Assembly (NCBI RefSeq): GCF_000003815.2
Contig: NC_049988.1
Location: 21,186,434-21,250,433 of the forward strand
Direction: 5' to 3'
Length of the DNA: 64,000 nucleotides
Source: Branchiostoma floridae
Lineage: Eukaryota > Chordata > Leptocardii > Amphioxiformes > Branchiostomatidae
A program made the position numbers and the translations under genes. The notes beneath the pieces are model-generated. The model was given only the letters and a program-made list of their open reading frames with translations, searched no databases and was not told the origin of the DNA. Positions 23,041 through 64,000 of this stretch are shown in pieces. The first letter of the stretch is position 1; each line of letters opens with the position of its first letter.

Positions 23041-23061
23041 GCCGATATTAACCCGTCCCGT

Positions 23062-42868: not shown

Positions 42869-45800
42869 GTGAGTTGCTGTTTTCGTCATCAACATCATCT
42901 TCTGTTTCTAGAAGACTGTATTGGGTAGCGTACTTGTATTTGTGACATATTGCTCGTGGTCAATTGATCAGCATTGGCTCTATAGTGGCCACTTTTCTCC
43001 AGTCCCTTGAGTGGCCCTTATAGGCATTTTTGACTGTGTATAGGCTATAGGGTAGCATACTTGTAATGACAATGTTTATTAGATCATTTAGAATATGGGG
43101 ATACATCCAAAAAGTTTTGGGGTGAACGATGAAGTTATGCTCTTAATTTGCACTGACACCAACCAATGTGAGTACAGATTGAAGGAGTGAATGAATGAAA
43201 GGGTGCATGAGTTATGCTGCATAGTATCAAAAGATCCAAGAGGTTCCCAGACCAAAAGTTATGAGACTTACTTTTCATCCAATGTAACTATGTATGTGTA
43301 CTTAAGTTTCCAAGGAGGTTAAAGTCAGCCTCTTGAAGTTACTGTAAATGCAGAAATGTTCGCGGTCGATTAATGTTCGCGGTTTTCGCGGTGACCACTT
43401 CACCGCGAATTTAAAACCACCGCGAACATTTTTCCATAACAGTAAGAGACTGCAGTGCATGGTGCTGCCGCGAAATTAAAACCACTGCGAAAAGTCCATC
43501 TTCCCGCTACCGCGAAATTAAATCCCCGCGAACTTAAATGCATTTACAGTACTAAGTACTTGAATGCCATACAATTTACTAATGCTGTCATGGTTCAAAC
43601 ACACTTCAGTATTCAGAAAACAGACATTTTTTTTGTAAAGAAAGTTTCACATTTGCACCTCTATTGCCTGTCCTGTGGAATGATGAACAGAAAACCTCAT
43701 CAGAAAACCCGTTGCCATAGCAACATTGGGTTTGGTGCTTATAGCTTCATTCTGACCACAGCGCCAGGGATCAGCTCGGAACTTCAATCTCCCTTCAAAC
43801 AAGACATGTTTGAAAAATACTCAATTCTAAGTTCTAGTTCGTAAAATATCAAAGTCTATATAGTGAGGTAGTGTTTTATTTAAGTTAGTATGACTGGTGT
43901 AACTATAAAAGTTTGTTTTCTTGATTGGATGTGTGCTTGAACTTCTGAGACGCTCCCCTCGTCAGTACAGAGTGATGTAATCTGAAGATACACCAGAGTT
44001 CCTCCTACACAAGGAACGGTGATATACTGACTGATAAGAGCTGACTGTACTGATGTAATTAATACCTTATCGTGTTGTAATTACAAAAATATCAGAAACA
44101 ATTGTAATTACAATTTAGAGCCTGGTCACATTCGTTATATGCAAGGTGTTTCAACCAGGGTAGGGGCTTTTCTGTAACAAAGGCAAACTACATCAAATTG
44201 TTGTTCTGAGAGTCATAAATTGAAAAAAAAAATTCTGGGGAAGGATGCCCCTCTTATGTAAGTTATGATGGTTGAACTGCTGTGCTGCTTGCCATATGGC
44301 TTAGCTGCACTTAAATGCCCCCAACACTGTGAAAACGTCCTGGTGAGAACTTGAACAAGCTGTTACTATTGTTAGGGATATGGTATGTTTCCTGAAACAA
44401 CTTAAGACCAAACGTTCCATATACCGCAACTGACCGCAAGTAAAGACGAAGTTTTGTTGTTGTTTTCCTTCCCCAGAGGATGAACACAGGCTGAAGGTTG
44501 CGCAGGAGATCAGTGAGAATTTTGAGGTAAAGCTTCATGCATTTTTATTGCCTTTGTCTGGAAGGTTATGTTTTTGGTACTGCCTTAGACAGCATAACTT
44601 CAAACTGTAGACTCAGTTATGTACAAATCTTAGATACAGGCACAGGTACAGGTACTGTAGTTAAGGTCCCTGTACCTATAGCCCATTATCTGTAAGTTAT
44701 ATATGTATAGCCAACTGTCTTTTTAGTCTGTGGTAACTTGTCATTTTTGTATGAGAACACATTTGAGTCTCAAACAAGGCTATCTCAACTTTCAACTGGC
44801 AGGTTATAAAAGATGTCATCTCAAGTCAATTTGAATTTAATGGCATGAGTCTGACTGAAGTTTTACCCCCCCCCCTCTCACCAGTCCATCGTGACGTCTG
44901 GCCAGTACCAGTCGTTCCTGGAACATGCCATCCCACGCTTCCTCAAGGTTCTACAGGAAGGTAAGACTGTCTTAGAAAGTGAAAGTTCTTACATGCATTC
45001 TTGAGAAATTACTGTATGAAATAAAGGCGTCTCAGTCAATTTTGAATAGCAAAAATAGCTTTGCCAGGTATTGTTTTGAGCTTCATGAACTTCTTAGATT
45101 TTTTAAAGGTGTATCATAAGTACTGCAAGTATATCCCTTCACCACTGTCCTTAAATGTGTTTTCCAGGAGACACCATTTTTGTGCAAGAAAATCCCATCC
45201 AGGTAAGGCCATCTCTTGAAAATGACTGTTTTGAAAATGACTGTTTTGTAGATTTGTACCTATGCAACATTAGGATTTTTGTAGTCATTTTTTAGCAATG
45301 CTATTGTACCTGTTGCAATTGTTGTGCAATAACATTTGCTTCTTACCTCAAGTTAAGAAAGGTGCTGAAATTGTGCCATTTTGTTATTTTTCAGCAACTA
45401 CGGAAACTGCTGTTGGAGATCATCCACCGCATCCCGACCAACGATCACTTCCGCATCTACGTCAGCAAAGTGCTGTCCCTCATGTTCCAGCTTATAGAGG
45501 TTAGAGGTTATGGGGTTAGAGTTCAGGGGTCACAGGTTAGGGTTAGAGGTTAGGGTTCACACTTCCACATCTATGTCAGCAAAGTGCTGTTCCTCATGTT
45601 CCAGCTTATAGAGGTTAGAGGTTATGGGGACAGGGGTCACAGGTTAGGGTTAGAGGTTAGGGTTCACACTTCCACATCTATGTCAGCAAAGTGCTGTCCC
45701 TCATGTTCCAGCTAATAGAGGTCAGAGGTTATGGGGTTAGAGGTTTAGGGGTCCCAGGGTTAGGGTTAGAGGTCAGGGTTCACACTTCCAAAATTCATAG

Positions 45801-48800
45801 AATCTCTCAATAGCGACTATCAATAGAGAAATTGCAGAGTTTTATTTTTCCTGCATCTTTGTGTCTCTAGATTTTTGTGGAAAGTAGGATTGTGGGAATA
45901 AACCTGCTAACCTCATAAAAATCAAGAGACCCACTAGGAACATGTTGATTTTGGTCAGTAGATCATCAGTAAGTTTCTGAATGTGAGTTTCTGTGTTTCT
46001 GTGCCTGGTACAGAGAGAGAATGAGGAGAATGTTCTGGTCTGCCTGAGAATCATCATCGAGCTGCACAAACAGTTCAGGCCACAGATCCAGCCGGAGGTG
46101 GGTATCACACCGGGGTTTCTGCAAGGGCATCACACTGGGGTTTCATCCAAGGTTAGGGCATGTGGTATCACACTGGGGTTTGATATAGGGTGTGGCAGAA
46201 GTGGCTGTCAAAGTGTGGGATCTCTAAAAATCATTAGTATGAGCGTCTTTACTCAAACTGGCTCTCAAGAAAATTTTTTTTTTTACTTAATGGTCACCAC
46301 GTAACAAGACCTGTAAACTCAACTGACACAAGACCTGTTTTACTGCAAGTTTCTGTATGTACATTATGAAATTTACACTAAATGTAAAAATGTCCTATTT
46401 CAGATCCAGCATTTTCTCCACATGGTGAAACAGATCTACAAGGACCTGCCTGCAAACATGGTGAGAACTTCAGCCTCCCTTTACAGCTCAATTTGTTGCT
46501 GATTTCAGTTTTAAGTCTAAGTGCAACTTGAGTTGATTGTTGGGCAATCTATGTCAGTTACTTGTGTGCAGAATTTGTTTTAAGTGCAGGGCTCGAAATA
46601 CTGGGTGCATGTGCACCCAGGTGCACCAAAAATTGGAGCTGTGCACCCAATTATTTTCTCTGGGTGCACCCTGTGAAATATTTTCTTAGGTTTATGTATG
46701 TAAATATATCAAAGTATACTTAGTATACATGTACATCATATTCTTGACATTTAAGTGTTAGAAAGATAATAAAAATGTCTGTTGTTTAAGAATGCTTGTA
46801 ACTAAATTTTATGATTAGGTTATTACTTAAATTCAATTGGTGCACCCAAAGTTTTTTTGGTACACCCATTTTTTAAGCTGGGTGCACCAGTGCACCTTAT
46901 CCCAAAAATGAATTTCGAGCCCTGAAGTGACAAATGAAAGACATGACTGTTCCCCCCCCCCCCCAGAACGCGATGTTTGAGAAGCCGATTAACGTGACTC
47001 TGGACGCGGCGACCGGCCAGCCCGTGGTGCTTCCGCTGTCCGGAACCGTCACCGTGCAGACGGAGAAGGCAGACGGCAGCAAGGAAACTGTGAGTCATCT
47101 CATGTTCCAGCTTATAGAGGTCAGGGTTAGGGGTCATAGGGTTAGGGTTAGAGGTTAGAGACCGGCCAGCCCGTGGTGCTCCCGCTGTCTGGAACCGTCA
47201 CTGTGCAGACGGAGAAGGCAGACGGCAGCAAGGAAACCGTGAGTCAAGTCTTAAGTTGATTTGTCCTTCTGGGACTTATTAGCCCTAATTGGACGCATCT
47301 TCCTCATACTTTGAATGCAGAAATGTTTGCGGTTTTTGCGGCGACCACTTTACCGCGAACTTAAAACGACTGCGAACATTTTTCTATCATGGTCTTAGAC
47401 TGCAGTCTATATTGTTACCAAAAAATTAAAACCTTTGTGAAAAGTCATTTCCCCCTACCTCGAAATTAAATCCCTGCGAACTTAAATGTATTTACAGTAT
47501 TCAGTTTCCATCTCCACATGGTTAAAACGAATCGTTGTAAGTTTTGTCAATAGGTCAAAATTTTTCTGTTCATAGAACTGAAGGATGCAGTAGCTTATGT
47601 TTTGACTTTGTGGTATCAAGCAGCTGTTCATCCATAATGGGCATTTGTATCACACCAAGGTTTCATTTTGGATGGGCATTTGGTATCACACCAAGGTTTC
47701 ATCTTAGAAGGGCATTTGGTGTCACACCAAGGTTTTATTATTTAAGCATCATGGTATTTGGTATCACACCAAGGTTTTGTCCAGTGTGAGTGTTTGCTAT
47801 CACACCAATGTTCCATCCAGCATGGGCATTTATAGGTATCATACAAGGGTTCATCCAACCAAATAACTGATGTACCACCAAAAGTTTGCCTGTTCTGTGT
47901 GATTTTCCCTGTGTCTGACCCACGTGTCTCTCCCCCGCAGCTGACAGTCCTGTCGAAGGGGATCAACTCGCTGAAGGTTCTGGCAGAGTTGCCCATCATC
48001 GTGGTCCTCATGTACCAGGTAAGGTCTGCTTCTTACACTCTTTTGTCAAGGAACTATAGTGGTGACGAACTCTTCACCAAGTAAGATTTGGTAAAAGTGA
48101 CTACAAAAGGGCTGTCTCCAGCTTTAAATTATTTTCCATCCCACTGATGGTTTTGGAGCTAATGTTGTCCATTTTCGTTGTTAAATCTGTTATTCTAACC
48201 TCAGGATACAGTATCAACAATTTCATGTCATGAAGTTCGGATCTCAGTGCGGATAGAGTGAATTCTATTTCCGTCCCAACAAGCAAATTTCCGTCCCAGG
48301 ACGCAAGAACAGGTCCTGGAGACAAACTCTTCAAGAAGGATTTGACAAAAGTGACTTTTAAAAACAACAGTTAGCCTTGAACAACAGAATTCGAAATGTA
48401 ACCATTGGAAGCTGTTGGCTCCATGTAAATGTTGCTCAAAATTCTGGTCTAAACACCTTTTCATTGCTCTGAACAGCTGTACAAGCAGAACGTCCACAGT
48501 GCGGTGTCCGTTTATTTCTCTCATTATGTCTCTTTCCTTCCTTCCCTCCTTCACAGCTTTACAAGCAGAACGTCCACAGTGCCGTGTCAGAGTTCATCCC
48601 TCTCATCATGAACACCATCGTGCTCACTCCTTCAGCACAGGCCAGGTAAACAGGATGTTTGTTTGTTTGTTTGTTTATTTTCTGTTGTCTCCCACACTGA
48701 CAAGAGATTCTCAGTCTACTTTTGTCAAGTCCGATTTCAATTCGCGAAGGGGATTTGTATTATTTCACTCGCAAACATTTGATGTAACAATATTTCCTGT

Positions 48801-51800
48801 TTATCATACTTTTTATGTGACATGAAGTTTCTTTTCAATGTGTGTGGTGGACTCTTTAACGTGCTTGAGGTTTGGCTCTCCTCAAACACAGGTCCTCTGG
48901 GTTCCCAACTGTAAAGTAATGAATATAACACCTGGTGTGCCATGCTTTTTCCTCAGAGCGTCTCCCCAGTTTAACCGTGAGCTATACGTGGATTTCGTTG
49001 CGGCTCAGATCAAGACACTCTCCTTCCTGGCTTACATCATCCGTATCTACCAGGTGAGACGTCTTATCAAACTTCTTAATCCATAAGACATAGTTTGTGT
49101 GTCCGACACTTCCTCAAGACAAGTATAAGATATGTCAGTTTTCTCGCTAGGATTTTTCCAAAGCGTAGGGGCATCTTAGCATGGTGCAGTTCTCATTTCC
49201 TTACAATGTTGAAAAAGTTGGAATATATTTTACTTTAAACTTTCTGTGGCTGTTTTTGCAATGATTTCTCCGCTGCAAACCCCAGACACTGTGAACATGT
49301 ATTTATCGTGTGACCTCTCTTCTATAGAATTGCAAATAGCAAATTCAAAACACAAACCCCTCCCTTTCCCCCCTGCTTGTTACAGATGTTTGTTAGTGGA
49401 TGAACTTCCCTCCCCCAAAGTTGTTCTTGCTGACCTCCTCCCCCTGGAGTTTGTTTACACATGTGTTTTTGTTTGTTTGTTAGGACTCTGTGACAACCTT
49501 AGCTTGATTGTTTATTTCTTTGTCAGGACTCTGTGACGACCTACGCTAACCAGATGGTGAAGGGCATGCTGTCCTTGCTGACCAACTGTCCGCAGGAGGT
49601 CACTCACCTGCGCAAGGAGCTGCTCATCGCAGCACGGCACATCCTGGCAACCGACCTCAGGAACAGTAAGTTCTAGCTCCAAGTTGTTACCTGGGAAAAT
49701 TGGAGGTGCTGCATTTGGTGTACAGTAGAAGCCGCTTAATTGCACGGTCTGTTTGGCAGTGAATTTCGTGCAGTTATCTGGCTGGTACAAAAATGCGAAG
49801 TTATCTAGCTGGACCGCACCTGTTTGGTATTTTGAGGTTCTGTGCAGTTAACAGAAGTGTGCGTTAATCCGTTGTGCAATTAACTGGCTTCTACTGTATT
49901 TGTCTGTTTGTAATTCTTGTGTTTCTGGATATTTGTGGTCAGCATAACTTCAGAGTTTTTTATTTTTTGTTTTCTAGGATTTGTCCCCCACATAGACCGG
50001 CTGTTTGATGAGAAGGTTCTGATAGGAACGGGCTGGACGACACGGGAGACTCTCCGGTAGGTTTCATGTTACAGTCCTTGGCTTTCACTGTCCACTTCTT
50101 TTTGTTTTACTGACAAAAGCATTGCTACTGTACGCTCATTATTTTGTATGTATATGTATAATTATGTGTTTCTGTTGTGTTTTTCAGCCCGTTAGCCTAC
50201 AGTACCCTAGCAGACCTGGTGCACCATGTGAGACAGCTGTCAGACCTGGCACTAGCTGTCCATCTCTTCTCTAAAAACTTGTGTTTTTGTGTGTTTTCAG
50301 CCTAAAAGCTTGTGTTTTTGTGTGTTTTCAGCCCGTTAGCCTACAGTACCCTAGCAGACCTGGTGCACCATGTGAGACAGCACCTACAGCTGTCAGACCT
50401 GGCGCTAGCTGTCCATCTCTTCTCTAAAAACTTGTGTTTTTGTGTGTTTTCAGCCTACAAACTTGTGTTTTTGTTGTGTTTTCAGCCTAAAAACGTGTGT
50501 TTTTGTGTGTTTTCAGCCTAAAAACGTGTGTTTTTGTGTGTTTTCAGCCTGAAAACTTGTGTTTTTGTGTGTTTTCAGCCTAAAAGCTTGTGTTTTTGTT
50601 GTGTTTTCAGCCCGTTAGCCTACAGTACCCTAGCAGACCTGGTGCACCATGTGAGACAGCACCTACAACTCTCCGACCTTGCACTAGCTGTCCATCTCTT
50701 CTCTAAAAACTTGTGTTTTTGTGTGTTTTCAGCCTAAAAACTTGTGTTTTTGTTGTGTTTTCAGCCTAAAAACGTGTGTTTTTGTGTGTTTTCAGCCTAA
50801 AAACGTGTGTTTTTGTGTGTTTTCAGCCTGAAAACTTGTGTTTTTGTGTGTTTTCAGCCTAAAAGCTTGTGTTTTTGTGTGTTTTCAGCCTAAAAACGTG
50901 TGTTTTTGTGTGTTTTCAGCCTAAAAACGTGTGTTTTTGTGTGTTTTCAGCCTGAAAACTTGTGTTTTTGTGTGTTTTCAGCCTAAAAGCTTGTGTTTTT
51001 GTTGTGTTTTTCAGCCCGTTAGCCTACAGTACCCTAGCAGACCTGGTGCACCATGTGAGACAGCACCTTCAGCTGTCAGACCTGGTGCTAGCTGTCCATC
51101 TCTTCTCTAAAAACTTGTAATTTTGTCATGTTTTTCAGCCTAAAAACTTGTGTTTTTGTTGTGTTTTCAGCCTAAAAACTTGTGTTTTTGTGTGTTTTTC
51201 AGCCCGTTAGCCTACAGTACCCTAGCAGACCTGGTGCACCATGTGAGACAGCACCTACAGCTGTCAGACCTGGCGCTAGCTGTCCATCTCTTCTCTAAGA
51301 ATGTGCACGATGACTTACTGCCCAGCAGTATCCAGACCATGTCCTGCAAGGTAAGGAGAATCACTAGCAAAAATGTTGTCAATAGTGGAAACATAACTAT
51401 TGTGAGGGGGTCCGGGTGCATAACCTTCCATGGTGCAGAGTTTTTGAGAATTTCAAGTTAAAATTTTGCACTTTAATGTATCCCGAGGGGCAAAATTACT
51501 GTTAGGGAGGTCACAGTAGAAGACTGTGACCACAGATGACCTGGTGGCATCCCTGGTCAATCAGAATTTCATTCTTGTCAGAGGATCTGCTCTCCAGTGT
51601 AAGGGCCTCTAGTGCGTCCAATTTCTTGTTATTTTAAGAAAAGCGCGTCCAAATGACACCATGACGCATGCCTGGATAAAAGCCTGATTCCCTTTTACTT
51701 CCAGTTGCTGCTGAACCTTGTGGAGTGCATCAAGAGTGACCAGGACGGAGGAAATGTAAGTTCCAAACTCTTAAATTTAAACTTCATCTTTTACTGTTTC

Positions 51801-54800: not shown

Positions 54801-57800
54801 ACAACTACGCTCTGCAGATCTTTGTGTCATAGATAAACAAACAAATAAACAAACAAACAAATGTTTACATTGCAGTTCATGGTGGAGCGTATCTACCACA
54901 ACTACGCTCTGCAGATCTTTGTGTCATAGATAAACAAACAAATAAACAAACAAACAAATGTTTACCTTGCAGTTCATGGTGGAGCGTATCTACCACAACT
55001 ACGCTCTGCAGATCTTTGTGTCATAGATAAACAAACAAATAAACAAACAAACAAATGTTTACATTGCAGTTCATGGTGGAGCGTATCTACCACAACTACG
55101 CGCTGCAGATCTTTGTTTTCTATTCAAACAAACAAACAAACAAACAATCAAATGTTTACATTGCAGTTCATGGTGGAGCGTATCTACCACAACTACGCAC
55201 TGCAGATCTTTGTTTTCTATTCAAACAAACAAACAAACAAACAATCAAATGTTTACATTGCAGTTCATGGTGGAGCGTATCTACCACAACTACGCACTGC
55301 AGATCTTTGTCTCATAGATAAACAAACAAACAAACAAACAAACAAACAAATGTTTACCTTGCAGTTCATGGTGGAGCGTATCTACCACAACTACGCGCTG
55401 CAGATCGTGGCTAACACGTTCCTGGCGAACCCCTCGACCTCCGCGACCTTTGCCACCATCCTGGTGGACTATCTACTGGACAGACTGGAGGAGATCGGAT
55501 GTGAGTTTTCAAAATTATGAAATGAAATTAAGATACTGAGAAAATTAGAAATGCAATATTTATGAGAAAACGCAGGAAATTTCCTTCCAAGTAATTCGCT
55601 TTGCATTGTAAACCTGTAATTACCGTACAGATTTTGTTCGTAATTGCTAGAACAGCAGATATTCTGATGTCACCGGCACTGGTGGCACTTCTTAAAACTC
55701 TGATTGGTTCATGGCAGAACAAGAAAGAAGAAGAAGAACACACCAGCAGAACAACACGTTTCCCTCCAGGAAACATAATGACTGAATTAACATTGCTTCT
55801 CATGTATGTTTACTGAAGATGTGTTTTTCTCTCCCAGCTGCCAACATCGAGAGGTCCAACCTGTACCTGAAACTGTTTAAGCTGGTGTTCGGCTCCGTCT
55901 CCCTGTTCGCAGCTGAGAATGAGCAGATGCTGAAGGTATGTGGGATCCACAAATTCCCGTCACCTCAGATTTGTGTGCAATCCTGTTGTGGTTTTTGCCC
56001 CCATTTTTCGTTTGTCATGAGTGCTGTTAGAGGTCTTAAAACCCTAGATTAAAGCTGTTCTGTTTTGTTGAATACTCCTTGTCTGAAGATCTTCTGAAGG
56101 CTGTTACAACTCTTAAGTTCAGTGGATATTGTCTTGATGAGTTATCTTTATTTGCTTTTTGTCTACTCTGTAAAAACACAACACAATTCAGTGCTGTCTA
56201 CCAGGGTTGTAGCCAGCCAGAAATCATTTTCAGTCCCCTCCATTTTGGAATGGCAGCATTCCTAGGGGGTCTGGGGGCATGTGCCCAAGGAAAATTTTGA
56301 AATTTAGACCCTCTGAAATGCTATTTCCTGCATTTTGAGGGTTAAATTTTGCTCACAGAGGACGGAATGGGGAAAAAAATTTTCCGTCCCCAGCTTCAAT
56401 AATTCCTTCAAAGGACGGAAGGACGGGTGCTGGCTACAACCCTGCTGTCTACATTGAGTAACATGTGCTGCTACATGTATGTTACTAAAGGTCCCCCCCA
56501 CTCACCCCCTCCCGTCCTCCCCAGCCCCGCGTGTCCCTCGTGGTTACCGGCTGCATGAAGCTCGCGGAGACGGCCCCCGAGCCGGAGCGATACTTCCGCC
56601 TGATGCTCGCTCTGTTCAGCGCGGTCGGCGCTAACTTCCTATTCCTGGAGCGGGAGTGCCGATCCCTCCTCTTTACCTACTACACCAACAATGTACTGTC
56701 CCCAGCCTTCTGTTACCCCTGTTACACCAACAATGTACTGTCCCCAGCCTTCTGTTACCCCTGTTACACCAACAATGTACTGTCCCCAGCCTTCTGTTAC
56801 CCCTGTTACACCAACAATGTACTGTCCCCTGCCCTCTGTTACCCCTGTTACACCAACATTGTACCTTCCCTTTGTTATCCCTGTTTTACAATGTACTTTC
56901 CCCAGCCTTCTGTTAACCCTGTTACACCAACAATGTACCTTCCCCACCCTATGTTACCCCATCCTGGTACTAACCATGTACCTTCCCTTCCCTGTATAAC
57001 CCTGCTCCAACACCTAAACTGTACCATCCCTTCATTTCTGTGGCTCCTGACAAAACAATGATGTACTAACCCTTTAGTTGGCTTTCTTTCCCTTTCTCTG
57101 TAACTTCATCTGTTGTTCACAGCTTCTTCCCATTATCTTTCCATCCCTCCAATCAATCAATCAATCAATCAACCAATCATTCTGTTTCCTCCAATCAGCT
57201 TCTTTACGATCCTTTCATTGATTCACCTTTGCAGGAGAGCCTGTTTGTCTTTTTCACAGTTGCAGTAGCTGTAGGTTTACCAGTTTTTTACTCCCAGAAG
57301 TCTGGAGCTGTTCACAGTTCGCAATGCTACAGTTTCTTGGGCCATAGCAAATAGATTTTATGGATGACATCCTCTGCAGACTATGAGGGGAACAAAATTT
57401 CTTTCTTGTTGTGAAAGTCATTTTTCAGTTTATAGTTTGTAAGTCAATGCGAGCAGGGATGCCATCCATACAATTTACTTCCTGAGGCCTTAAAGTCTGT
57501 CCCTTGAAGTTTGGAGGACTTAAGATCCATCTCAGAATGATGTCTTTCTTGGTCTTACCTGAACTTTTCCTGGCTATGTTCCCCCCAGCCCCATCTGCAC
57601 AAGATCGTGAACAGCTCGATGGAGCTCGCCCAAACAGCAAAGGAGCCGTACAACTACTTCCTGCTGATGCGGGCGCTGTTCCGCTCGATCGGGGGCGGCA
57701 GCCATGATCTTCTGTACCAGGAATTCTTACCTCTCCTGCCCCATCTGCTGCAGGGTAAGTTTGTTTGTTTGTTTGTTTGTTTGTTTGTTTCGCTCGATCG

Positions 57801-59888
57801 GGGGCGGCAGCCATGATCTTCTGTACCAGGAGTTCTTACCTCTACTGCCCCATCTACTGCAGGGTAAGTTTGTTTGTTTGTTTGTTTGTTTGTTTTGCTC
57901 CATCGGGGGAGGCAGCCACGATCTTCTGTACCAGGAGTTCTTACCTCTACTACCACATCTACTGCAGGGTAAGTTTGTTTGTTTGTTTGTTTGTTTGTTT
58001 TGCTCCATCGGGGGCGGCAGCCACGATCTTCTGTACCAGGAGTTCTTACCTCTACTGCCCCATCTACTGCAGGGTAAGATTGTTTGTTTGTTTGTGCCTT
58101 TATTTAAACTCGATTGTCAAGTTTCCCATCAGGATTTGTTTATAGAATGGGGGGCACATGAGTGCAGCGAAGCCACATGGCAAGCAATGCTGGCGAAAGC
58201 ATTGTAGGTGGTCTGGAGGCATCATCCCATTAAAACTTTTGATTTGTGACCCTCAGAATTCAATGCACAGACAAACACATACACTTACCCTGTTACAGGA
58301 CTGAATAACCTGCAGAGCGGTCTCCATAAGCAGCACATGAAGGACTTGTTTGTCGAGCTGTGCCTGACCGTTCCCGTACGCCTTTCTTCGCTCCTGCCGT
58401 ACCTGCCGATGCTCATGGACCCGCTTGTCTCGGCGCTGAACGGATCGCAAACCTTGGTGAGCCAGGTAGGGTGCCGCCCGCGCGTGCTCCAGGCTCGGAA
58501 GGCTGTTTCCATGCCGACCGGACACTCCCCTCAGATCCCCTGTAACCACACGTTTCCGTTCATAATCATCATTTTCTAAATTCTTAAATCACCTTTTTTC
58601 TAAATACTTCAACCACCTGTTTGGATAAAATCATGTCCCGACGAGAATAACAGTGTAAAATTATCGTTTTCTTATTTTTAATCTTTTTCTGGTTTTTATT
58701 TTCCTAATTATTTCTTCCTTAGTGTCCAATGTCTGAATCAATTTTATTTTCACAGTGAGCAATTCTTACTCTTAACATTTTAAAAACTTGTCTGTTTCAA
58801 TGAGCTGTTTGGATTTTTCAGTTGTTTTGAGAATCGCCGTTCCCTTGTGTCAAGGTTTTATGAGTCACACATTTTTGCACTAATTTTGTAAAATCACAAA
58901 TTGTCTGAATATTCCTGGTTCCCACTTTGTGCTGTTCTGTTGAGAATTACAAGTCAAGAAATGATTAATATCAGTGCTCGAAATACCCACCTGCACACTT
59001 GCAAACGCAACCACATTTAGTTTGGCGCAATTTAATTTTAAACCCAGCTAGCACAGTGCATAACCTGAACTTTTGCAGTTGGAACACTGCTTTTCCCCCA
59101 CCTACGTTTAGAAGCTTTTGTATTTATTTCTTGATAAGATAAAGCATAAGTAGTTACATGTAACTGGAAAAAAAGATGATGGATAAGTAGCTGATTGGAA
59201 GACAGTAATAACTTGGAAGTGGGGCAACCTGAAATGTTGGTGACTTTACCTGGCATTTGACTTGAGTTGCTGCCTGGGCAACCTGGCTGAAAGAAGTATT
59301 TCGAGCACTGAACATGTTGTTCTGATTTGCGTTCCCAGTTCCATATGATCATGATTGTGCTCACAGTGATGTTATGTTGCAGGTTTCCACTGTCGCCCTG
59401 CATCTGGCTGTTTCCTCTGAAGTTTCTTTACCTTTATTACCTGTTTTCCTTTATATTGTGTGTGTGTACATCTGTGTATTTCGTATGTGTGCATGATTGG
59501 TTGGTTCTGTGTGCTTTGGTGAGCTCAACCCAAGAAGCTATATGGGTAGATTGTTATGATATTTGGTATGTGGGTACGTTTTGGAGGCCAATGATGATTT
59601 TTTGCCTCCTAGCAGATTCCGTTGGTTTTTTTTTGTAACCATCTTTTGGACATTGAGTGGTCTTCATGATTTTTTTTGTGACAGATAGTTTTTGACGTCA
59701 AGATGGAGTTGTGTAACAAAGTATATCAAAGTATATAAAAATATGAAATATTTTGGATGCAGTTTTAATCTAATCTGTGATTTGGGAGTCATTACATGAT
59801 TGACTAAAGATAGTGTTCTGTAGAAATGTCTAACATTAAGTTAATGAGGTTAAAGTCAATGTGCATCTTTACTCGGAAGGAGGTACAG

Positions 59889-59983
<95 letters not shown>

Positions 59984-62900
59984 TCTGTCTGTCTGTCTGT
60001 CTGTATGATGGTCAAGGACGATTTGGGGCCTGCTAACAGCTTTCTTGGTACTGCGGCTGAACTTCTGGTATTTATATACTCTGTTCTATACATGGTCATG
60101 ATATTTGGACGGTAGACGCTGTTTGACGTTTGGGCCCACAAGCAACTTACTTTGGTACTCAGGGGCATTTTTGTTGAAGGAAACTTAGTGGTAAATGGTA
60201 GGAACTTCATACATGTGACATAGCCAATATGTACAATGTAAGTTCATTCAAGGTGGCCATTTGATATGTTTAGACTACACATCATGTATAACTGTGGACA
60301 TTGTTTGCATAATCAATGATTAAATGCTAAGATAGCATTCTGCCAAAAGATGGGACTTACCTGCTTACTGTATATGTAATTTAGGCAAAAGACCACCAGT
60401 AATGCTAATTAGAATGTATTTGCATAATTTGTGAGATGCAATAAAGAAAGAAATTTACAGATTTTATAAATTTTTCCCTTTTCCCCTACCCAGGGCCTGC
60501 GCACCCTGGAGCTGTGTGTGGACAACCTGCAGCCGGAGTTCCTGTGGGACCACATCCAGCCGGTCAGGGCCGAGCTCATGCAGGTAAACACACAAACAAA
60601 CAAACAAACATTCAATTGGTCAGGGCCCAGCTCATGCAGGTAAACACACAAACAAACAAACAAACATTCAATTGGTCAGGGCCCAGCTCATGCAGGTAAA
60701 CACACAAACAAACAAACAAACAAACATTCAATTGGTCAGGGCCAAGCTCATGCAGGTAAACACACAAACAAACAAACAAACAAACATCCAGCCGGTCAGG
60801 GCCGAGCTCATGCAGGTAAACACACAAACACACAAACAAACAAACAAACAAAGATCCATCCTGTCAAGGCCGAGCTCATGCAGGTAAACAAACACACAAA
60901 CAAACAAACAAACATCCAGGCTTCAGGGCCGAGCTCATGCAGGTAAACAAACAAACAAACAAACAAACAAACATCCAGGCTTCAGGGCTGAGCTCATGCA
61001 GGTAAACAAACAAACAAACAATCAAACATCCAACCTGTACGGGCCGAACTCATGCAGGTAAACACACTAACAAACAAACAAACAAACATTCAGGCTTCAG
61101 GGCCGAGCTCATGCAGGTAAACAAACAAACAAACAAACAAAGCATATCTGGCCAGTCAAGGCTGAGCTCATGGTTCATCCAGTTTTGCAGAGTGAAGACC
61201 TTCTTGTTTGGACCAGCCACCCCCAGTCCTCAACCATTTTTCTTTTAGCTTCGGTCCCTTGAGTAGTTGTTGACCAAGCTTGTAAGAATCTTCACCTTTT
61301 CCCCCATCCTGCCCTGTATTCCACAGGCCCTGTGGCGAACCCTCCGGAATCCCGCAGAGAACATCGCTCAGGTGGCGTTCCGAGTCCTCGGGAAGTTTGG
61401 GGGAAACAATAGGAAGATGCTGATGGACCCGCAGAAGGTGGGAAGATGTTTGGTACATTGTACTGTACAGAGCTGTATTATGTGTCTACCCGGATGTGCA
61501 ACCTTCCTCTAGGTAAAGATGCAGTTGTGCATGAAGAAATGCTTTACCAAAAACCTTTTATTATTGATCATGAGCTAGCACCACACCTAGCTACACACCT
61601 TTGAAACTTTGTCTCTCTGAGGCTTTGCAGTCAAAGCTATGCCTGCACCACTGAAACTGTCTGAACATTACGATATACACAGTGTAAATGAAGCAACAGA
61701 TAGTGTACAAATATATAAATTTTCTGAAGGATGCTACCTGTTACCTCTGACTTTTAGATAGACTTTAGCCAGTTGCCTGATTTGTTAGGTACCACGTTAC
61801 CACATCAAGGCAAGTAGAGTTGTTAAGAGCCCCNNNNNNNNNNNNNNNNNNNNNNNNNNNNNNNNNNNNNNNNNNNNNNNNNNNNNNNNNNNNNNNNNNN
61901 NNNNNNNNNNNNNNNNNNNNNNNNNNNNNNNNNGGTCAGCTTTTATTTTTATGTTACAATTTTAAGACCTTTTATCTGTGCACAAAATAAAGCGCTTACC
62001 AAGAAGCTTTCGATCAGTCTTTTGATCCTTCTCAAGTTGAAATGACCCAAAGCCTAAGTCACACATCCGGACCGGAAGTGTGATGTCAGCAAAGGGTCAA
62101 AGGTGCTTGGCTGTCGGTATCGGCCCCCATCTCGGTTGAGGGAAAGTTGTATTGTGTTGTGGCAATCTCAATGCAATGTGTAAGTTGAGGAAACACTGCC
62201 ATTTACAAAACAAAACAAAACAAAACAACAAGAAGCAAGTTTTGTTCCGTTGCCAGGTGATTGACACGGCCGTGAGCATCCTGAAGACCCCAAATGTGGA
62301 CATGTACTACCGACGGCAGGCGCTGGAGGTCATCAAGGGCTTCCTGGTGGGCATGATGAGTCTGGAGGACAACAAACTGTCTCTGCACCAGCTTCTGGCA
62401 CACCAGAGGTGAGAGGGCATCGGTCACTGAGGGTGGGAGGTCTAGGGTAAGGGGTGAGAGGTCATCAAGGGGTTCCTGGTGGGCATGATGAGTCTGGAGG
62501 ACAACAAACTGTCTCTGCACCAGCTGTTGGCACACCAGAGGTGAGAGGGCATGGGTCACTGGGGTTGCAGGTCATGGGTCACCAGAGGTGAGAGGTCATG
62601 GGTTGCCGGGCTGGGAGGTCAAATGTCACCTGGGTTGGGAGGTCATCAAGGGCTTCCTGGTGGGCATGATGAGTCTGGAGGACAACAAACTGTCTCTGCA
62701 CCAGCTGTTGGCACACCAGAGGTGAGAGGGCATGGGTCACTGGGGTGGGAGGTCATGGGTCACCAGGGGTGGGAGGTAAGTGGTGGAAGGTCATTCAGGG
62801 CTTCCTGATCGGCAAGATGAGCTGCTGGCACACCAGAGGTCATGGGTCATTAGGGTGAGAGGTCAAGAAGGGCTTCTTGGTGGTTGGAAGGCTAGGAAGT

Positions 62901-64000
62901 ATGAGAGAGAGATTTGCTGACCTCTTTTCTGTCCCTGCAGTTTTGCGGAGCGGGAGATCCCGCCGCCCCCCTCCCCCCTGTACAAGTGCCCAGACTCCAT
63001 GGCTAGGAAGGCGTTCGAGCAGGCGCTGGCAGGAGCCATGAGTGAGTAACTTTCATAACTCTGGATCTTATACATCTACACTATCATCTACACTCTTCTC
63101 ATTACAACTCTCATTACAAACTTTTCAAGTCAAAGGTGAACAACCGTCTGTCACAGGGCTGTCTCCAACTTTTAATTCATTTCCGTCTCTCATTGTTTGG
63201 AGCCCATGTTGTTGATTTTCCTGGTTAGATATGTCATTTTAAGCTTTTTCAACAGTTTCGTGCTATTTTGGGGCACGGATGGGGTAAATTTTTTTTCCGT
63301 CTGAACAACTAAATTTTTTGGTACAGAGGTAGAGTGGCTTATAGTATACTACCGGATGCACAAGTAAAAGTGATTTCCTAGCCTCTACAATGTCATGTAT
63401 ATTGCTGAGCATGCCCCGCCCCCCTGTCCCCAGTGTACAGTGATTTCCTAGCTTGTTCATGTACATGTATATTGCTAACCATGCTGCTTATCTCCCCCAG
63501 TGTACAGTGATTTCCTAGCCTGTACATGTACATGTATATTGCTAACCATGCCGCCCCTGTCCCCAGTGTGTGCAGTAATAAAGGACCTGAGGGCCAGCTC
63601 TCTGCCATTTGTAGCCAACATCATCAGGCACTACACCATGGTGGCCTTGGTGCAACAGTGTGGTGAGTACTGACTACCTAGGGGGTCTTGGACAAGAGGA
63701 TTCTATTCTGCAGTATTAGCAGTGACTAGACATTACCGCAGACGCCTTTGCAATAATACTCAATAGCAGTATAATAAGTACTCACACATGTAGTTAAGGT
63801 TGACACCCTCAACCCCAGGAGTTGAAAGCTGACGACACGCTCTTTTGTGGCTTGCCTCCTGGCATCTTGGAACGGCATCATCCGACTTTAAATACCAATA
63901 GGAAGTCTTGGAACAGTGTTGTTTCGCTAGGCCTATTCCCCCTATCAGGAGGTGCATGTACAATGTATGGGCTACTGGGTCTGAAGCAAATTTAGTTAAT
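42763..64000 (+). CDS. TRRAP: TRRAP, N-terminal quarter (gene continues past the window)
   Basis: TRRAP is a roughly 3,850-residue PIKK-family pseudokinase. It is the activator-binding scaffold of the SAGA and TIP60/NuA4 histone acetyltransferase complexes in the nucleus. 28 coding exons are found (42763-63662), all with GT-AG borders and compatible phases except across the third gap. They give about 998 codons of the N-terminal HEAT-repeat region. FAT and kinase-like domains lie beyond the window. Highly conserved stretches include ENFE, LEIIHRIPTND, ENEENVLVCLRIIIELHKQF, LKVLAELPIIVVLMYQ, TMSCKLLLNLV, LMRMLEVFVLKFHTIA, VKTLVCGVKTITWG, YLKLFKLVFGSVSLFAAENE and LVSALNGSQTLVSQ. Exon 8 (NVTLDAATGQPVV region) is the most diverged. 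One exon of about 30 codons expected between 61437 and 62257 is missing. Many splice borders are embedded in tandem copies of themselves. Confidence 0.97.
43342..43559 (+). mobile_element. CTGTAAATGCA-end MITE (copy 3, best preserved)
   Basis: TA at 43340-43341 and 43560-43561. Ends CTGTAAATGCAGAAATG and AAATGCATTTACAG. The interior alternates CCGCGAA and TTCGCGG blocks. Lies in TRRAP intron 1. Confidence 0.93.
44477..44526 (+). CDS. TRRAP: TRRAP exon 2
   Basis: ccttccccag|AGGATG to TTTGAG|gtaaag. Encodes DEHRLKVAQEISENFE. Phase 1 in, 0 out. Confidence 0.93.
44885..44960 (+). CDS. TRRAP: TRRAP exon 3
   Basis: ctctcaccag|TCCATC to CAGGAAG|gtaaga. Encodes SIVTSGQYQSFLEHAIPRF and onward. Phase 0 in, 1 out. 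Confidence 0.95.
45168..45202 (+). CDS. TRRAP: TRRAP exon 4 (35 nt)
   Basis: tgttttccag|GAGACA to ATCCAG|gtaagg. Encodes GDTIFVQENPIQ with the preceding G. A short exon, as in vertebrates. Confidence 0.92.
45395..45499 (+). CDS. TRRAP: TRRAP exon 5
   Basis: gttatttttcag|CAACTA to ATAGAG|gttaga. Encodes QLRKLLLEIIHRIPTND and onward to FQLIE. The donor is weak (gttaga), and the exon end with this donor is copied downstream. Confidence 0.93.
45500..45790 (+). repeat. Array of exon 5 3' ends with TTAGGG-like intron
   Basis: Two further copies of CACATCTATGTCAGCAAAGT, GCTGT, CCTCATGTTCCAGCTTATAGAG and gttagaggttatgggg lie at 45568-45660 and 45671-45780. Period about 110 bp. GTTAGGGTTAG strings resemble telomere repeats. 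Confidence 0.9.
46014..46097 (+). CDS. TRRAP: TRRAP exon 6
   Basis: tggtacag|AGAGAG to CCGGAG|gtgggt. Encodes RENEENVLVCLRIIIELHKQ then FRPQIQPE. Phase 0 to 0. Confidence 0.96.
46098..46190 (+). repeat. Minisatellite of GGTATCACAC-GGGGTTTC beside donor 6
   Basis: Three short units of ATCACACTGGGGTTT type immediately after the exon 6 donor. The same unit is expanded in intron 8 at 47640-47850. Confidence 0.75.
46404..46460 (+). CDS. TRRAP: TRRAP exon 7
   Basis: cctatttcag|ATCCAG to AACATG|gtgaga. Encodes IQHFLHMVKQIYKDLPANM. Phase 0 to 0. Confidence 0.95.
46587..46924 (+). mobile_element. GGGTGCACC MITE with CAGGGCTCGAAATA ends and AAGTG target duplication
   Basis: CAGGGCTCGAAATA at the left and AATTTCGAGCCCTG at the right. 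AAGTG flanks it (46582-46586, 46925-46929). GGGTGCACC words occur in both orientations. Lies in TRRAP intron 7, ending about 40 bp before exon 8. Confidence 0.92.
46967..47089 (+). CDS. TRRAP: TRRAP exon 8 (lineage-divergent segment)
   Basis: C-run then cag|AACGCG to GAAACT|gtgagt. Encodes NAMFEKPINVTLDAATGQPV and onward to TEKADGSKET. This linker is also variable in other animals. A partial second copy with donor follows at 47161-47239. Confidence 0.9.
47090..47245 (+). repeat. Chimeric array: exon 5 end fragment plus second exon 8 end
   Basis: After the exon 8 donor comes CTCATGTTCCAGCTTATAGA, then ggtcagggttagg and gttagggttagaggttagag. This is the exon 5 array sequence from 45483-45560. 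It is followed by a second copy of ACCGGCCAGCCCGTGGTGCT to GGCAGCAAGGAAAC and its donor gtgagtc. Confidence 0.92.
47309..47497 (+). mobile_element. CTGTAAATGCA-end MITE (copy 4, decayed left end)
   Basis: Left TACTTTGAATGCAGAAATG, right AACTTAAATGTATTTACAG then TA. Interior matches copy 3. Confidence 0.85.
47640..47860 (+). repeat. Minisatellite GGTATCACACCAAGGTTTC, about six units
   Basis: Units of 30-50 bp with GGGCATTTGGTATCACACCA and AGGTTTCATCTT or variants. Intron 8. Confidence 0.85.
47941..48018 (+). CDS. TRRAP: TRRAP exon 9
   Basis: ctcccccgcag|CTGACA to TACCAG|gtaagg. Encodes LTVLSKGINS then LKVLAELPIIVVLMYQ. Phase 0 to 0. Confidence 0.97.
48460..48515 (+). repeat. Decoy copy of exon 10 acceptor and start
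   Basis: CTCTGAACAGCTGTACAAGC then AGAACGTCCACAGTGCGGTG repeats the first 35 nt of exon 10 about 84 bp upstream, including the cag. Confidence 0.88.
48557..48645 (+). CDS. TRRAP: TRRAP exon 10
   Basis: tccttcacag|CTTTAC to GCCAG|gtaaac. Encodes LYKQNVHSAVSEFIPLIMNT and onward. Phase 0 in, 2 out. It is the full copy; the upstream copy stops after 35 nt. Confidence 0.96.
48957..49053 (+). CDS. TRRAP: TRRAP exon 11
   Basis: ttttcctcag|AGCGTC to TACCAG|gtgaga. Encodes FNRELYVDFVAAQIKTLSFL then AYIIRIYQ. Confidence 0.97.
49480..49510 (+). repeat. Decoy copy of exon 12 acceptor
   Basis: GTTTGTTAGGACTCTGTGAC then AACCTTAG lies 43 bp before the true TTTGTCAG|GACTCTGTGACG. Confidence 0.8.
49527..49665 (+). 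CDS. TRRAP: TRRAP exon 12
   Basis: tctttgtcag|GACTCT to GGAACA|gtaagt. Encodes DSVTTYANQMVKGMLSLL then LRKELLIAARHILATDLRN. Phase 0 in, 1 out. Confidence 0.97.
49721..49898. mobile_element. Pogo/Tigger-like MITE, CAGTAGAAGCC ends
   Basis: TA at 49721-49722 and 49897-49898. Termini CAGTAGAAGCCGCTTAATTG and CAATTAACTGGCTTCTACTG. Inner arms TGCACGG and GTGCAGTTA. TA target and CAGT termini fit pogo-type elements. Confidence 0.88.
49978..50056 (+). CDS. TRRAP: TRRAP exon 13
   Basis: tgttttctag|GATTTG to CTCCG|gtaggt. Encodes FVPHIDRLFDEKVLIGTGW then TTRETL. Phase 1 in, 2 out. Confidence 0.96.
50165..51202 (+). repeat. Array of four truncated exon 14 copies and about 20 decoy 3' splice sites
   Basis: Copies of the first about 93-105 nt of exon 14 (CCCGTTAGCCTACAGTACCC and on to CTGTCCATCTCTTCTCTAA) start at about 50189, 50331, 50612 and 51016. 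Between them runs a 31-32 bp minisatellite, CCTAAAAACTTGTGTTTTTG then TGTGTTTTCAG. Each unit of it is a T-rich tract plus CAG. The copy at 50189 lacks nine nt (in frame). All four read into a stop after the copied segment. Confidence 0.95.
51203..51350 (+). CDS. TRRAP: TRRAP exon 14 (only full copy)
   Basis: tgtttttcag|CCCGTT to TGCAAG|gtaagg. Encodes PLAYSTLADLVHHVRQHLQ then SSIQTMSCK. Phase 2 in, 0 out. It is the fifth copy in the array and the only one with the downstream half and a donor. Confidence 0.97.
51705..51755 (+). CDS. TRRAP: TRRAP exon 15
   Basis: ttacttccag|TTGCTG to GGAAAT|gtaagt. Encodes LLLNLVECIKSDQDGGN. Confidence 0.96.
51940..52153 (+). repeat. Two truncated upstream copies of exon 16 acceptor and start
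   Basis: GTTCCTTACAGGTCCGTGAG (51939-51958) and GTTCCTTACAGGGCCGTGAG (52061-52080) each carry ATGAGAATG-tGGAAGTGTT and then turn into GTTAAGTTTAAGACGTGT. The true acceptor is ttcctttcag at 52153. Decoy copies have no conserved continuation. Confidence 0.92.
52154..52245 (+). CDS. TRRAP: TRRAP exon 16 (full copy)
   Basis: tcctttcag|GGCCGT to AAATG|gtaaac. Encodes GREILMRMLEVFVLKFHTIA then KFQLPGIFAK. Phase 0 in, 2 out. Confidence 0.96.
52585..52684. other. Assembly gap (100 N) in intron 16
   Basis: It abuts the tandem copies of the exon 17 acceptor, so further copies may be missing. Confidence 0.99.
52685..52820 (+). repeat. 57-bp tandem copies of exon 17 acceptor and start
   Basis: GCACTTTCTCTCCCCTGTCC then AG|TAAAAACGAGCGTGAACTTG occurs three times. 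Exon starts would be 52707, 52764 and 52821. The period of 57 (19 codons) keeps the frame and no stop intervenes, so any of the three acceptors would give an in-frame protein. Confidence 0.95.
52821..53035 (+). CDS. TRRAP: TRRAP exon 17
   Basis: cctgtccag|TAAAAA to CTGGAG|gtgagt. Begins KNERELDLKAAAIPPPPSL, a charged and proline-rich linker. It is followed by the conserved VSDCRSLVKTLVCGVKTITW. Phase 2 in, 1 out. The shortest of three possible starts is given. Confidence 0.95.
53542..53683 (+). CDS. TRRAP: TRRAP exon 18
   Basis: tttccttag|AAACAT to GCAGAA|gtaagg. Encodes FGPSKQFQPKETAIFSALV then LDIYQINVTPSGQPYIRAQ. Phase 1 in, 2 out. Confidence 0.95.
53719..53884 (-). mobile_element. CTGTAAATGCA-end MITE (copy 5, reversed)
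   Basis: Starts TACTGTAAATGCATTTAAG. The interior AGCACTATGCACTGTAGTCT then TACTGCCATAGAAAATGTTC is the reverse of copy 3. The right end is decayed. Confidence 0.85.
54248..54305 (+). CDS. TRRAP: TRRAP exon 19
   Basis: ttccctgcag|CTCCCA to GGAGTG|gtacgt. Encodes SQTVRMKEEKDVLEHFAGV. Confidence 0.97.
54509..54562 (+). CDS. TRRAP: TRRAP exon 20
   Basis: cccccacag|TTCACC to ATCGAG|gtgagt. Encodes FTMMNLLTFKEIFSTTIE. Phase 0 to 0. Confidence 0.97.
54760..55364 (+). repeat. 97-bp array: six truncated copies of exon 21 acceptor and start
   Basis: Decoy exon starts at 54779, 54876, 54973, 55070, 55167 and 55264 (exact 97-bp spacing), then the true one at 55365. Each copy has AAATGTTTACCTTGCAG or TTACATTGCAG, 42 nt of exon ending CTGCAGATC, and then TTTGTGTCATAG or TTTGTTTTCTAT with an AAAC microsatellite. 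Only the last continues into conserved sequence. Confidence 0.97.
55365..55500 (+). CDS. TRRAP: TRRAP exon 21 (full copy)
   Basis: taccttgcag|TTCATG to ATCGGAT|gtgagt. Encodes FMVERIYHNYALQIVANTFL and onward to LLDRLEEIG. Phase 0 in, 1 out. Confidence 0.97.
55838..55935 (+). CDS. TRRAP: TRRAP exon 22
   Basis: tctctcccag|CTGCCA to CTGAAG|gtatgt. Encodes NIERSNLYLKLFKLVFGSVS then LFAAENEQMLK. Phase 1 in, 0 out. Confidence 0.97.
56202..56444. mobile_element. hAT-like MITE with CTGTCTAC 8-bp target duplication
   Basis: Ends CAGGGTTGTAGCCAGC and GCTGGCTACAACCCTG. The perfect 8-bp repeat CTGTCTAC is on both sides (56194-56201, 56445-56452). CAGGG termini with an 8-bp duplication are hAT hallmarks. 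The interior has the TTGAAATTTAGACCCTCTGA block that also recurs (reversed) in the 19.6-kb element. Confidence 0.95.
56525..56692 (+). CDS. Diverged extra copy of TRRAP exon 23 (candidate alternative exon)
   Basis: Strong acceptor (C-rich tract, cctccccag|CCCCGC), then 56 open codons. It aligns with exon 23 at 57589 at P1, V7, M11, LA13-14, TA16-17, EP19-20, YF23-24, L26 and ALF29-31 (MKLAETAPEPERYF here, MELAQTAKEPYNYF there). Roughly a third of residues match. The only near donor is AAT|gtactg (56693, phase 0), which would allow inclusion as a 56-codon cassette before exon 23. Swapping with exon 23 would need a phase-1 donor, and only weak gttac sites offer one. Vertebrate TRRAP lacks this segment. 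Confidence 0.55.
56670..56990 (+). repeat. 42-bp minisatellite at the end of the extra exon
   Basis: Unit ACACCAACAATGTACTGTCC then CCAGCCTTCTGTTACCCCTGTT. About four good and three decayed copies. It starts in the last codons of the extra exon and repeats its possible donor AAT|gtactg. Confidence 0.93.
57145..57180. repeat. AATC microsatellite
   Basis: About eight AATC units. Confidence 0.95.
57589..57754 (+). CDS. TRRAP: TRRAP exon 23
   Basis: ttccccccag|CCCCAT to CTGCAGG|gtaagt. Encodes PHLHKIVNSSMELAQTAKEP and onward to SIGGGSHDLLYQEFLPLLP. Phase 0 in, 1 out. Nearly identical to vertebrates, unlike the upstream extra copy. Confidence 0.97.
57755..58095 (+). repeat. Three extra copies of exon 23 3' end and donor
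   Basis: CGCTCGATCGGGGGCGGCAG on to CTACTGCAGG|gtaagt recurs with TTTG microsatellites between. Donors are at 57755, 57864, 57969 and 58074 (spacing 109, 105, 105). The copies keep most coding sense (GGGSHDLLYQEFLPLLPHLL). Confidence 0.96.
58299..58465 (+). CDS. TRRAP: TRRAP exon 24
   Basis: ccctgttacag|GACTGA to GCCAG|gtaggg. Encodes LNNLQSGLHKQHMKDLFVEL and onward to MDPLVSALNGSQTLVSQ. Phase 1 in, 0 out. Confidence 0.97.
58972..59310. mobile_element. CAGTGCTCGAAATA MITE in intron 24
   Basis: CAGTGCTCGAAATAC and GTATTTCGAGCACTG are perfect 15-bp TIRs. The interior has CCCACCTGCAC near the left and GCCTGGGCAACCTGG at the right. AATAT and AACAT flank it. Confidence 0.9.
59893..60004. repeat. 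GT microsatellite with TGTC tail
   Basis: About 48 GT dinucleotides then about five TGTC units. Confidence 0.98.
60494..60583 (+). CDS. TRRAP: TRRAP exon 25
   Basis: cccctacccag|GGCCTG to ATGCAG|gtaaac. Encodes GLRTLELCVDNLQPEFLWD then HIQPVRAELMQ. Phase 0 to 0. Confidence 0.97.
60584..61175 (+). repeat. Array of nine extra exon 25 3' ends with donors, about 57-bp period
   Basis: CCGGTCAGGGCCGAGCTCAT then GCAG|gtaaacacacaaac recurs nine times with AAAC microsatellite spacers. A tenth, at 61150-61172, has lost the donor (CTCATGGTTC). The first follower copies share ATTCAATTGGTCAGGGCCCA and later ones CATCCAGGCTTCAGGGC, so the array has at least two sub-families. Confidence 0.96.
61327..61437 (+). 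CDS. TRRAP: TRRAP exon 26
   Basis: tattccacag|GCCCTG to CAGAAG|gtggga. Encodes ALWRTLRNPAENIAQVAFR then VLGKFGGNNRKMLMDPQK. Confidence 0.97.
61834..61933. other. Assembly gap (100 N), probably hides TRRAP exon 27
   Basis: About 30 residues present in vertebrate TRRAP between the NRKML and YYRRQA segments have no counterpart in 61438-62256 outside the gap. Confidence 0.85.
62257..62408 (+). CDS. TRRAP: TRRAP exon 28
   Basis: ttccgttgccag|GTGATT to CCAGAG|gtgaga. Encodes VIDTAVSILKTPNVDMYYRR then MMSLEDNKLSLHQLLAHQ. Phase 0 in, 2 out. Confidence 0.96.
62409..62860 (+). repeat. Extra copies of exon 28 3' end with donor
   Basis: GGTCATCAAGGGCTTCCTGG on to GGCACACCAGAG|gtgaga recurs at 62459-62541 and 62640-62722. 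A decayed piece is at 62788-62840 (GGGCTTCCTGATCGGCAAGA then CTGGCACACCAGAGGTCATG). The intron parts are GGTCATGGGTCAC words. Confidence 0.95.
62941..63041 (+). CDS. TRRAP: TRRAP exon 29
   Basis: tgtccctgcag|TTTTGC to GCCATGA|gtgagt. Encodes FAEREIPPPPSPLYKCPDS then ARKAFEQALAGAM. Phase 2 in, 1 out. Confidence 0.95.
63365..63566 (+). repeat. 66-bp tandem copies of the exon 30 acceptor region
   Basis: GTGATTTCCTAGCCTGTACA then TGTACATGTATATTGCTAAC, CATGC and a C-rich tract with cccCAG|TGT recurs. Acceptor-like sites end at 63433, 63500 and 63566. The last is the one joined to conserved codons. Confidence 0.93.
63567..63662 (+). CDS. TRRAP: TRRAP exon 30 (last in window)
   Basis: ctgtccccag|TGTGTG to CAGTGTG|gtgagt. 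Encodes CAVIKDLRASSLPFVANIIR then HYTMVALVQQCG. Phase 1 in, 1 out. The gene continues beyond 64000. Confidence 0.96.
63663..64000 (+). other. TRRAP intron 30, start
   Basis: No exon or repeat recognised. Confidence 0.6.

Follow-up and report, generated by a model that had tools for sequence, protein, structure and literature searches.

Tandem arrays that copy an exon boundary have been described previously in amphioxus under the name of mirage minisatellites. They are known from Adh3 (Canestro et al. 2002), from the globin genes BflGb6 and BflGb9 (PMC3087553), and from PGBD5 (PMC3902484), and TnC, retinol dehydrogenase, and presenilin are added by citation. The Adh3 and globin mirages are described as copies of exon boundaries that carry internal splice signals and differ in length between haplotypes, and a model of intron gain is given for them (PMC3087553). 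The copies of the globin mirages undergo concerted evolution inside clusters, with the exception of the cluster edges (PMC3087553), and somatic instability has been reported for the Adh3 mirage. Outside amphioxus, a duplication across an intron-exon border of the potato RdRp gene is described as having created a new intron (PMC4974935).

The arrays considered here are located in the 5′ part of TRRAP, an essential gene, of Branchiostoma floridae. They resemble mirages in that each tandem unit contains one exon-intron border, either a donor or an acceptor, and one exon is left intact; the splice signals are present in many copies, the units range from tens of bp to about 160 bp, and copy number appears to vary. 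The TRRAP arrays are a new and dense case of the already described mirages, and copy turnover as such is not new.

The TRRAP Locus and Related Public Records

The window, which is the whole stretch of DNA that was analyzed, is 64,000 nucleotides in length, and the 5′ part of TRRAP occupies positions 42763–63662 of its plus strand. A hand-built model of this region has 29 coding exons (E1–E26 and E28–E30) and encodes 998 amino acids in a single open frame with no stops and with every junction in frame. A comparison of the last 920 of the 998 residues with the PDB leads to human TRRAP chains, the best being 9caf_D (1404 bits); the open 29-exon model and this match bear out the assignment of the gene as TRRAP in a preliminary description of the locus. 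An exon between E26 and E28 was not seen in the window and an N gap (61834–61933) is located there; the exon numbers are those of the preliminary description, provided that the unseen exon is counted as 27. A further N gap, at 52585–52684, directly precedes the E17 array. A protein database search gave two records: P0014, under the name of B. floridae, and P0077, assigned to a hybrid of B. floridae with a second parent species that we take to be B. japonicum. Of the 527 residues of P0014, 518 can be derived without change from the window, which is accordingly almost certainly of B. floridae; the host of the arrays is a cephalochordate.

Other features are present in the remainder of the window. 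An open frame for a CDK5 activator is found on the minus strand at 17169–18164 (Pfam PF03261, E 7.5e-101), and an array of 27 copies of a 33-bp unit, with 96% matches and open in several frames, is found at 22146–23043. At 26294–26621 there is an 82-bp tandem array of 4 copies with 97% matches; its unit, which includes GGGTAAAT and TTTCTACAG, possibly holds a whole small exon with its splice sites.

Anatomy of the Border Arrays

Each modeled exon with 20-bp flanks was compared with the whole window, and matches of at least 22 bp with at least 80% identity and E values up to 0.01 were considered. Extra copies were found by this search for 11 of the 29 modeled exons, on the donor side of E5, E8, E23, E25, and E28 and on the acceptor side of E10, E12, E14, E16, E17, and E21. 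Each match covers a single splice site together with a portion of a single exon; none holds a full exon or is purely internal to an exon, and all adjoin their own exon except for a 23-base E5 match at 47099, which is inside the E8 array. The copies with a splice site, including the real one, number 2 for E8, E10, and E12, 3 for E5, E16, and E28, 4 for E23, 5 for E14, 7 for E21, and 10 for E25, with degenerate remnants additionally present in the E25 and E28 arrays; the 3 copies of E17 are a minimum because that array begins at the N gap. The individual arrays are as follows.

45446–45790, plus strand: E5 donor array of 3 copies with a unit of about 107 bp; the real exon ends at 45499 and the decoys at 45613 and 45720
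47011–47246, plus strand: E8 donor array of 2 copies; the real exon ends at 47089 and the decoy at 47238
47099–47158, plus strand: fragment of the E5 array with a decoy E5 donor, between the two E8 copies and 1.5 kb from the E5 array
48473–48610, plus strand: E10 acceptor array, 2 copies, spacing 80 bp
49476–49542, plus strand: E12 acceptor array, 2 short copies, spacing 43 bp
50165–51301, plus strand: E14 acceptor array, the real copy (51203) and 4 decoy copies, with nested 31-bp acceptor repeats
51904–52191, plus strand: E16 acceptor array, 3 copies
52685–52850, plus strand: E17 acceptor array, 57-bp unit, present in no fewer than 3 copies
54711–55406, plus strand: E21 acceptor array of 7 copies with a 97-bp unit; the real exon starts at 55365
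57677–58095, plus strand: E23 donor array, unit of about 105 bp, 4 copies; real exon end 57754
60552–61172, plus strand: E25 donor array, unit of about 59 bp, 10 good copies and 1 degenerate; real exon end 60583
62325–62883, plus strand: E28 donor array; the real exon ends at 62408, and besides 3 good copies there are degenerate remnants
63369–63569, plus strand: marginal E30 acceptor array; the acceptor is present 3 times, with 3 bp of exon

GT or AG is kept at all 35 decoy splice sites examined, a set in which neither the nested 31-bp repeats of the E14 array nor the degenerate copies in the E25 and E28 arrays are included; one of the 35 reads cccag/TGTACAG, the slash marking the border. The preliminary description had proposed that 13 borders are tandemly repeated 2–10 times, seven of them with decoy acceptors and six with decoy donors, that a single full exon is left in each case, and that the copies keep the splice motif. 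The copy numbers, the single full exon, and the retained motif hold as stated: the 11 confirmed borders have from 2 to 10 copies, no match in the exon-against-window search contains a whole exon, and the motif is retained throughout the sites examined. The count of 13 is reduced to 11. The acceptor arrays of E10, E12, E14, E16, E17, and E21 stand and that of E30 is marginal, as it ends 3 bp into the exon, while the donor arrays of E5, E8, E23, E25, and E28 stand and that of a proposed extra exon 23 is not demonstrated, as this piece is without a convincing donor.

The Exon-23-like Piece

The piece in question (56514–56692, with exon sequence from 56525) lies upstream of the real E23, shares its acceptor phase, and is 66% identical to it in DNA sequence over 115 bp including the acceptor. 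Comparison of its translation with the E23 protein gives a BLOSUM score of 86, relative to a maximum of 38 in 1000 shuffles, its third positions are GC-rich, and it corresponds to approximately the same positions of the Tra1_central Pfam profile as E23, below the curated cut-off. The 28 GTs in 56641–57000 agree with CAG/GTAAGT at no more than 6 of its 9 positions. A repeated AAT/gtactg is in the wrong phase for E24. A further array lies downstream of the piece.

56681–57067, plus strand: array of 42-bp units that follows the exon-23-like piece and cannot be counted as a border array

The exon-23-like piece is absent from the public model P0014, and a search for it in other animals gave no match at E values up to 10 among 43 candidates (proteins of a length like that of the query). 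The similarity in sequence and phase indicates that the piece is real, being apparently a diverged copy of E23, and it may be a duplicate exon in decay or else an alternative exon of an unusual kind.

Synonymous Bias among Decoy Exon Pieces

The exon pieces in 33 decoys of 11 arrays differ from the real exon pieces by 37 synonymous (S) and 14 non-synonymous (N) distinct variants, as compared with an expectation of 26% S under unconstrained mutation (P 6e-12; P 3e-6 for a null of 40% S), in a count for which the exon cores were trimmed by eye at the unit ends, columns containing gaps were passed over, and E30 and the degenerate copies of E25 and E28 were excluded. Recounts with the ends set by BLAST gave S:N values of 35:12 (33 matches), 38:17 (35 matches), 61:56 (39 matches), and 64:65 (44 matches), all of which exceed the 26% expectation with P about 1e-8 or lower; it should be noted that the two lax runs take in the exon-23-like piece (66% identity, 56514–56628) and more E28 remnants, and that the laxest (64:65) also includes weak matches to E1 and E13.

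Differences per site over all copies are 0.187 at four-fold sites, 0.148 in intron, and 0.018 at zero-fold sites, and the corresponding values for decoys compared with decoys are 0.144, 0.147, and 0.030, respectively. The zero-fold:four-fold ratio is about 0.10 over all pairs and 0.21 between decoys. Ten of the 11 arrays have larger four-fold than zero-fold differences (sign test 0.006); in E17 the order is reversed. In the trimmed-core count, no non-synonymous change is found in E8, E12, E21, E23, or E28, and the S:N values are near neutral in E5 (2:2), E16 (3:3), E17 (1:2), and E25 (4:4); the degenerate, decayed copies of E28 contribute non-synonymous changes, giving 6:5 instead of 3:0. The unused exon pieces look as though they are still under protein-coding selection.

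For alleles of expressed genes in Branchiostoma belcheri, dN/dS values of 0.067–0.089 and an allelic synonymous divergence of 0.070–0.075 are given (PMC4284660). The zero-fold:four-fold ratio of the TRRAP copies is of the order of this allelic dN/dS. The copies are older than typical allele pairs, because their four-fold divergence (0.19) is 2–3 times the allelic synonymous value in B. belcheri.

Excess of Arrays at Exon Borders

Arrays were detected blind to the exons and their units were placed at random in the gene, a unit being taken to span a border if 5 bp or more of it lie on either side. In the TRRAP span, self-BLAST (at least 25 bp, score 40, some complexity required) gives 13 arrays when the merged E5/E8 cluster is taken as two, the E12 array, at 24 bp, hence being outside the set; 10 of the 13 span a border relative to an expectation of 2.57 (P 8e-6), and 11 of the 13 do so when E30 is counted (P 5e-7), where the P values treat arrays as independent and are uncorrected for the choice of the gene, which was picked for its richness in arrays. 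The arrays found by TRF (period at least 20) include 8 of 13 that span a border, as compared with 1.98 expected (P 9e-5, to be read in the same way), and with E12 and a small intronic array at 46100 added, 12 of 15 span a border; the unit lengths in these counts were chosen by the analyst from the TRF and BLAST output and were slightly different between runs. The 13 arrays of the 20.9-kb gene compare with 23 in the remaining 42.8 kb of the window, so that densities are about equal. The unusual feature is the position of the arrays and not their number, and within this gene the results support the earlier suggestion of a copying process biased to borders.

A border excess among visible arrays would also be produced by survivorship or detection, if duplications arise at random and those that bear exon sequence stay recognizable for longer while intron-only ones decay, with no exchange and no mutational bias to borders; the intron parts of the present arrays do diverge about as fast as four-fold sites. 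However, this account leaves decoys unconstrained, yet four-fold differences between decoys are about 5 times the zero-fold differences, and the similar density of repeats outside TRRAP means that arrays are detectable in stretches that have no modeled exons. It is considered unlikely.

The other possibility raised in the preliminary description, that duplications are neutral and random and are filtered solely by the tolerance of splicing and coding for those that spare an exon, is disfavored and improbable. As it predicts, none of the 13 array units contains two borders and none is wholly exonic, but only 0.25 and 0.55 such units, respectively, were expected in any case. When wholly exonic and multi-border units are barred as not tolerated, the expectation changes little, to 2.54 of 13, so that about 2.5 of 13 arrays should span a border given tolerated placement, whereas 11 do so including E30 (P 5e-7). 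Tolerance alone is insufficient to explain the scarcity of intron-only arrays because these should be tolerated as well.

Decoy Use in Splicing

The use of a decoy as the exon end would lead to a frameshift or stop in 30 of 35 cases and would keep the frame open in 5, and for this reason the decoys would be expected to be neutral. No open decoy is found in E8, E12, E14, E23, or E28, each of which has at most one non-synonymous change, and in E21 one of six is open. One part of an array is nevertheless spliced into a public model.

57912–58073, plus strand: array-derived predicted exon of P0014, 162 nt, a 54-residue in-frame insertion consisting of two decoys of the E23 array

The acceptor AG of this predicted exon exists through a synonymous change of GGC to GGA in one decoy. 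In the E23 array, the one array for which insertion as an exon was examined, 16 AG-to-GT pairs would keep an open frame if spliced between E23 and E24, 57912–58073 among them. The predicted exon would be either a mistake of gene prediction to which the array gave rise or a mirage in the process of becoming an exon. A critique of lancelet gene content ascribes many protein novelties to prediction errors and does not mention such repeats in the portion consulted (PMC4967905).

The preliminary description had also suggested that the arrays could feed alternative splicing. On one such reading, they regulate splicing or serve as alternative ends of exons, and selection for alternative proteins maintains them. 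The coding-like constraint in the decoys, the in-frame 54-residue exon of P0014, the 16 frame-keeping AG-to-GT pairs of the E23 array, and the 5 of 35 decoys that leave the frame open as exon ends are in accord with such a role. Against it, most decoys would produce a frameshift or stop, and arrays with no more than one non-synonymous change have no open decoy at all (E8, E12, E14, E23, and E28) or, for E21, one in six; the authors of the mirage studies conclude that regular splicing is undisturbed (PMC3087553, PMC3902484). The suggestion thus finds little support, the counterpoint being the inclusion of part of the E23 array in P0014; regulated alternative splicing through the arrays is unlikely, and selection for alternative proteins has very little to recommend it as what maintains the arrays.

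Possible Array Instability and Proposed Exchange

P0077 is identical to the TRRAP model over its first 406 residues and contains 13 E14 starts, the first of which is within the identical stretch, as compared with 5 in the window; it should be recognized that this is a protein record and that the parent species of its haplotype is unstated. These counts may point to an unstable array and to an inflated gene model in P0077. That the repeat copies were instead produced by mis-joining of haplotypes in assembly is the least credible account, although the array length is unlike that in P0077, N gaps are found directly beside the E17 array and where the missing exon should lie, one globin mirage was aberrantly assembled in a genome draft (PMC3087553), and the agreement of P0014 with the window may reflect derivation from the same assembly, since the copies differ from each other in patterned ways and the same structure is present at other loci, at one of which, PGBD5, re-sequencing agreed with the original sequence (PMC3902484).

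We consider it probable, with considerable room for doubt, that the arrays are amphioxus mirages whose units arose by slippage or template switching and whose decoys are exchanged with the functional exon end; such continual exchange is the likeliest cause of the synonymous signature. Units would originate by local slippage or by template switching, the latter being suggested by the presence in the E8 array of a piece of the E5 array from 1.5 kb away. A unit with one border may be harmless, as neither a decoy donor nor a decoy acceptor would bring with it the opposite site with which to pair; because each decoy is half of an exon with no partner site, splicing would be expected from exon definition to ignore it and to select the copy that is fused to the remainder of the exon. 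The arrays would then expand and contract, with functional and decoy copies being traded between diverged haplotypes through gene conversion or unequal crossing-over, and the decoy exon pieces could act as an allele pool of the functional exon. A decoy would be either a recent working exon end or subject to purging because it is able to corrupt one, and exchange with the functional exon would for this reason leave mostly synonymous differences in decoys. The conserved exon piece may also hold units similar enough to recombine, which would account for the rarity of intron-only arrays.

Direct traces of recombination within the window are weak. In a four-gamete test on few informative columns, the number of incompatible pairs was 1 for E21 (with one site in an AAAC run), 2 for E25, and 4 for E23, which are read as misaligned tails, and zero in E5, E14, E16, and E28. 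These weak traces are counted against exchange, together with the age of the copies, the near-neutral S:N values of E5, E16, E17, and E25, and the decayed remnants of E28.

A more far-reaching version of exchange, that amphioxus exon ends are shared, is entertained tentatively as possible, at somewhat less than an even chance. Frequent exchange would expose decoys to purifying selection indirectly, as conversion would carry the harmful ones into the working exon, and the extreme allelic divergence would confine surviving arrays to borders, because only conserved sequence there could anchor recombination.

If exchange at borders is general, it would explain an oddity of lancelets that has been known since 2002, would provide a natural system for splicing that disregards near-perfect duplicate sites, and would be a route for the supply of new exons and introns. 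The arrays would also account for part of the erroneous gene models of lancelets; two public TRRAP proteins, P0014 and P0077, carry array copies as protein. The synonymous signature renders exchange between copies directly testable.

Comparison with Known Systems

TRRAP differs from the mirages described in the literature consulted in having at least 11 arrays among 29 modeled exons of one conserved gene, in the synonymous bias of the differences among its decoys, and in one array that carries a piece of another. Statistics on borders and a coding signature in decoys were not found in the portions of the mirage literature searched. In comparison with the potato RdRp gene, TRRAP has 2–10 copies rather than one duplication and its new exon is only a gene prediction, but in both cases a duplication that crosses a border supplies splice signals from which a new intron or exon could be made, the predicted exon at 57912–58073 in P0014 being a case on paper.

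Arrays of pseudogenes can be kept coding-like by gene conversion, as in the avian immunoglobulin V pseudogenes. The TRRAP decoys are unlike these in being partial exon ends within one intron and in having no demonstrated role in diversification, but the exchange proposed here would be similar in principle, in that copies that are not expressed stay constrained through exchange with a functional copy.
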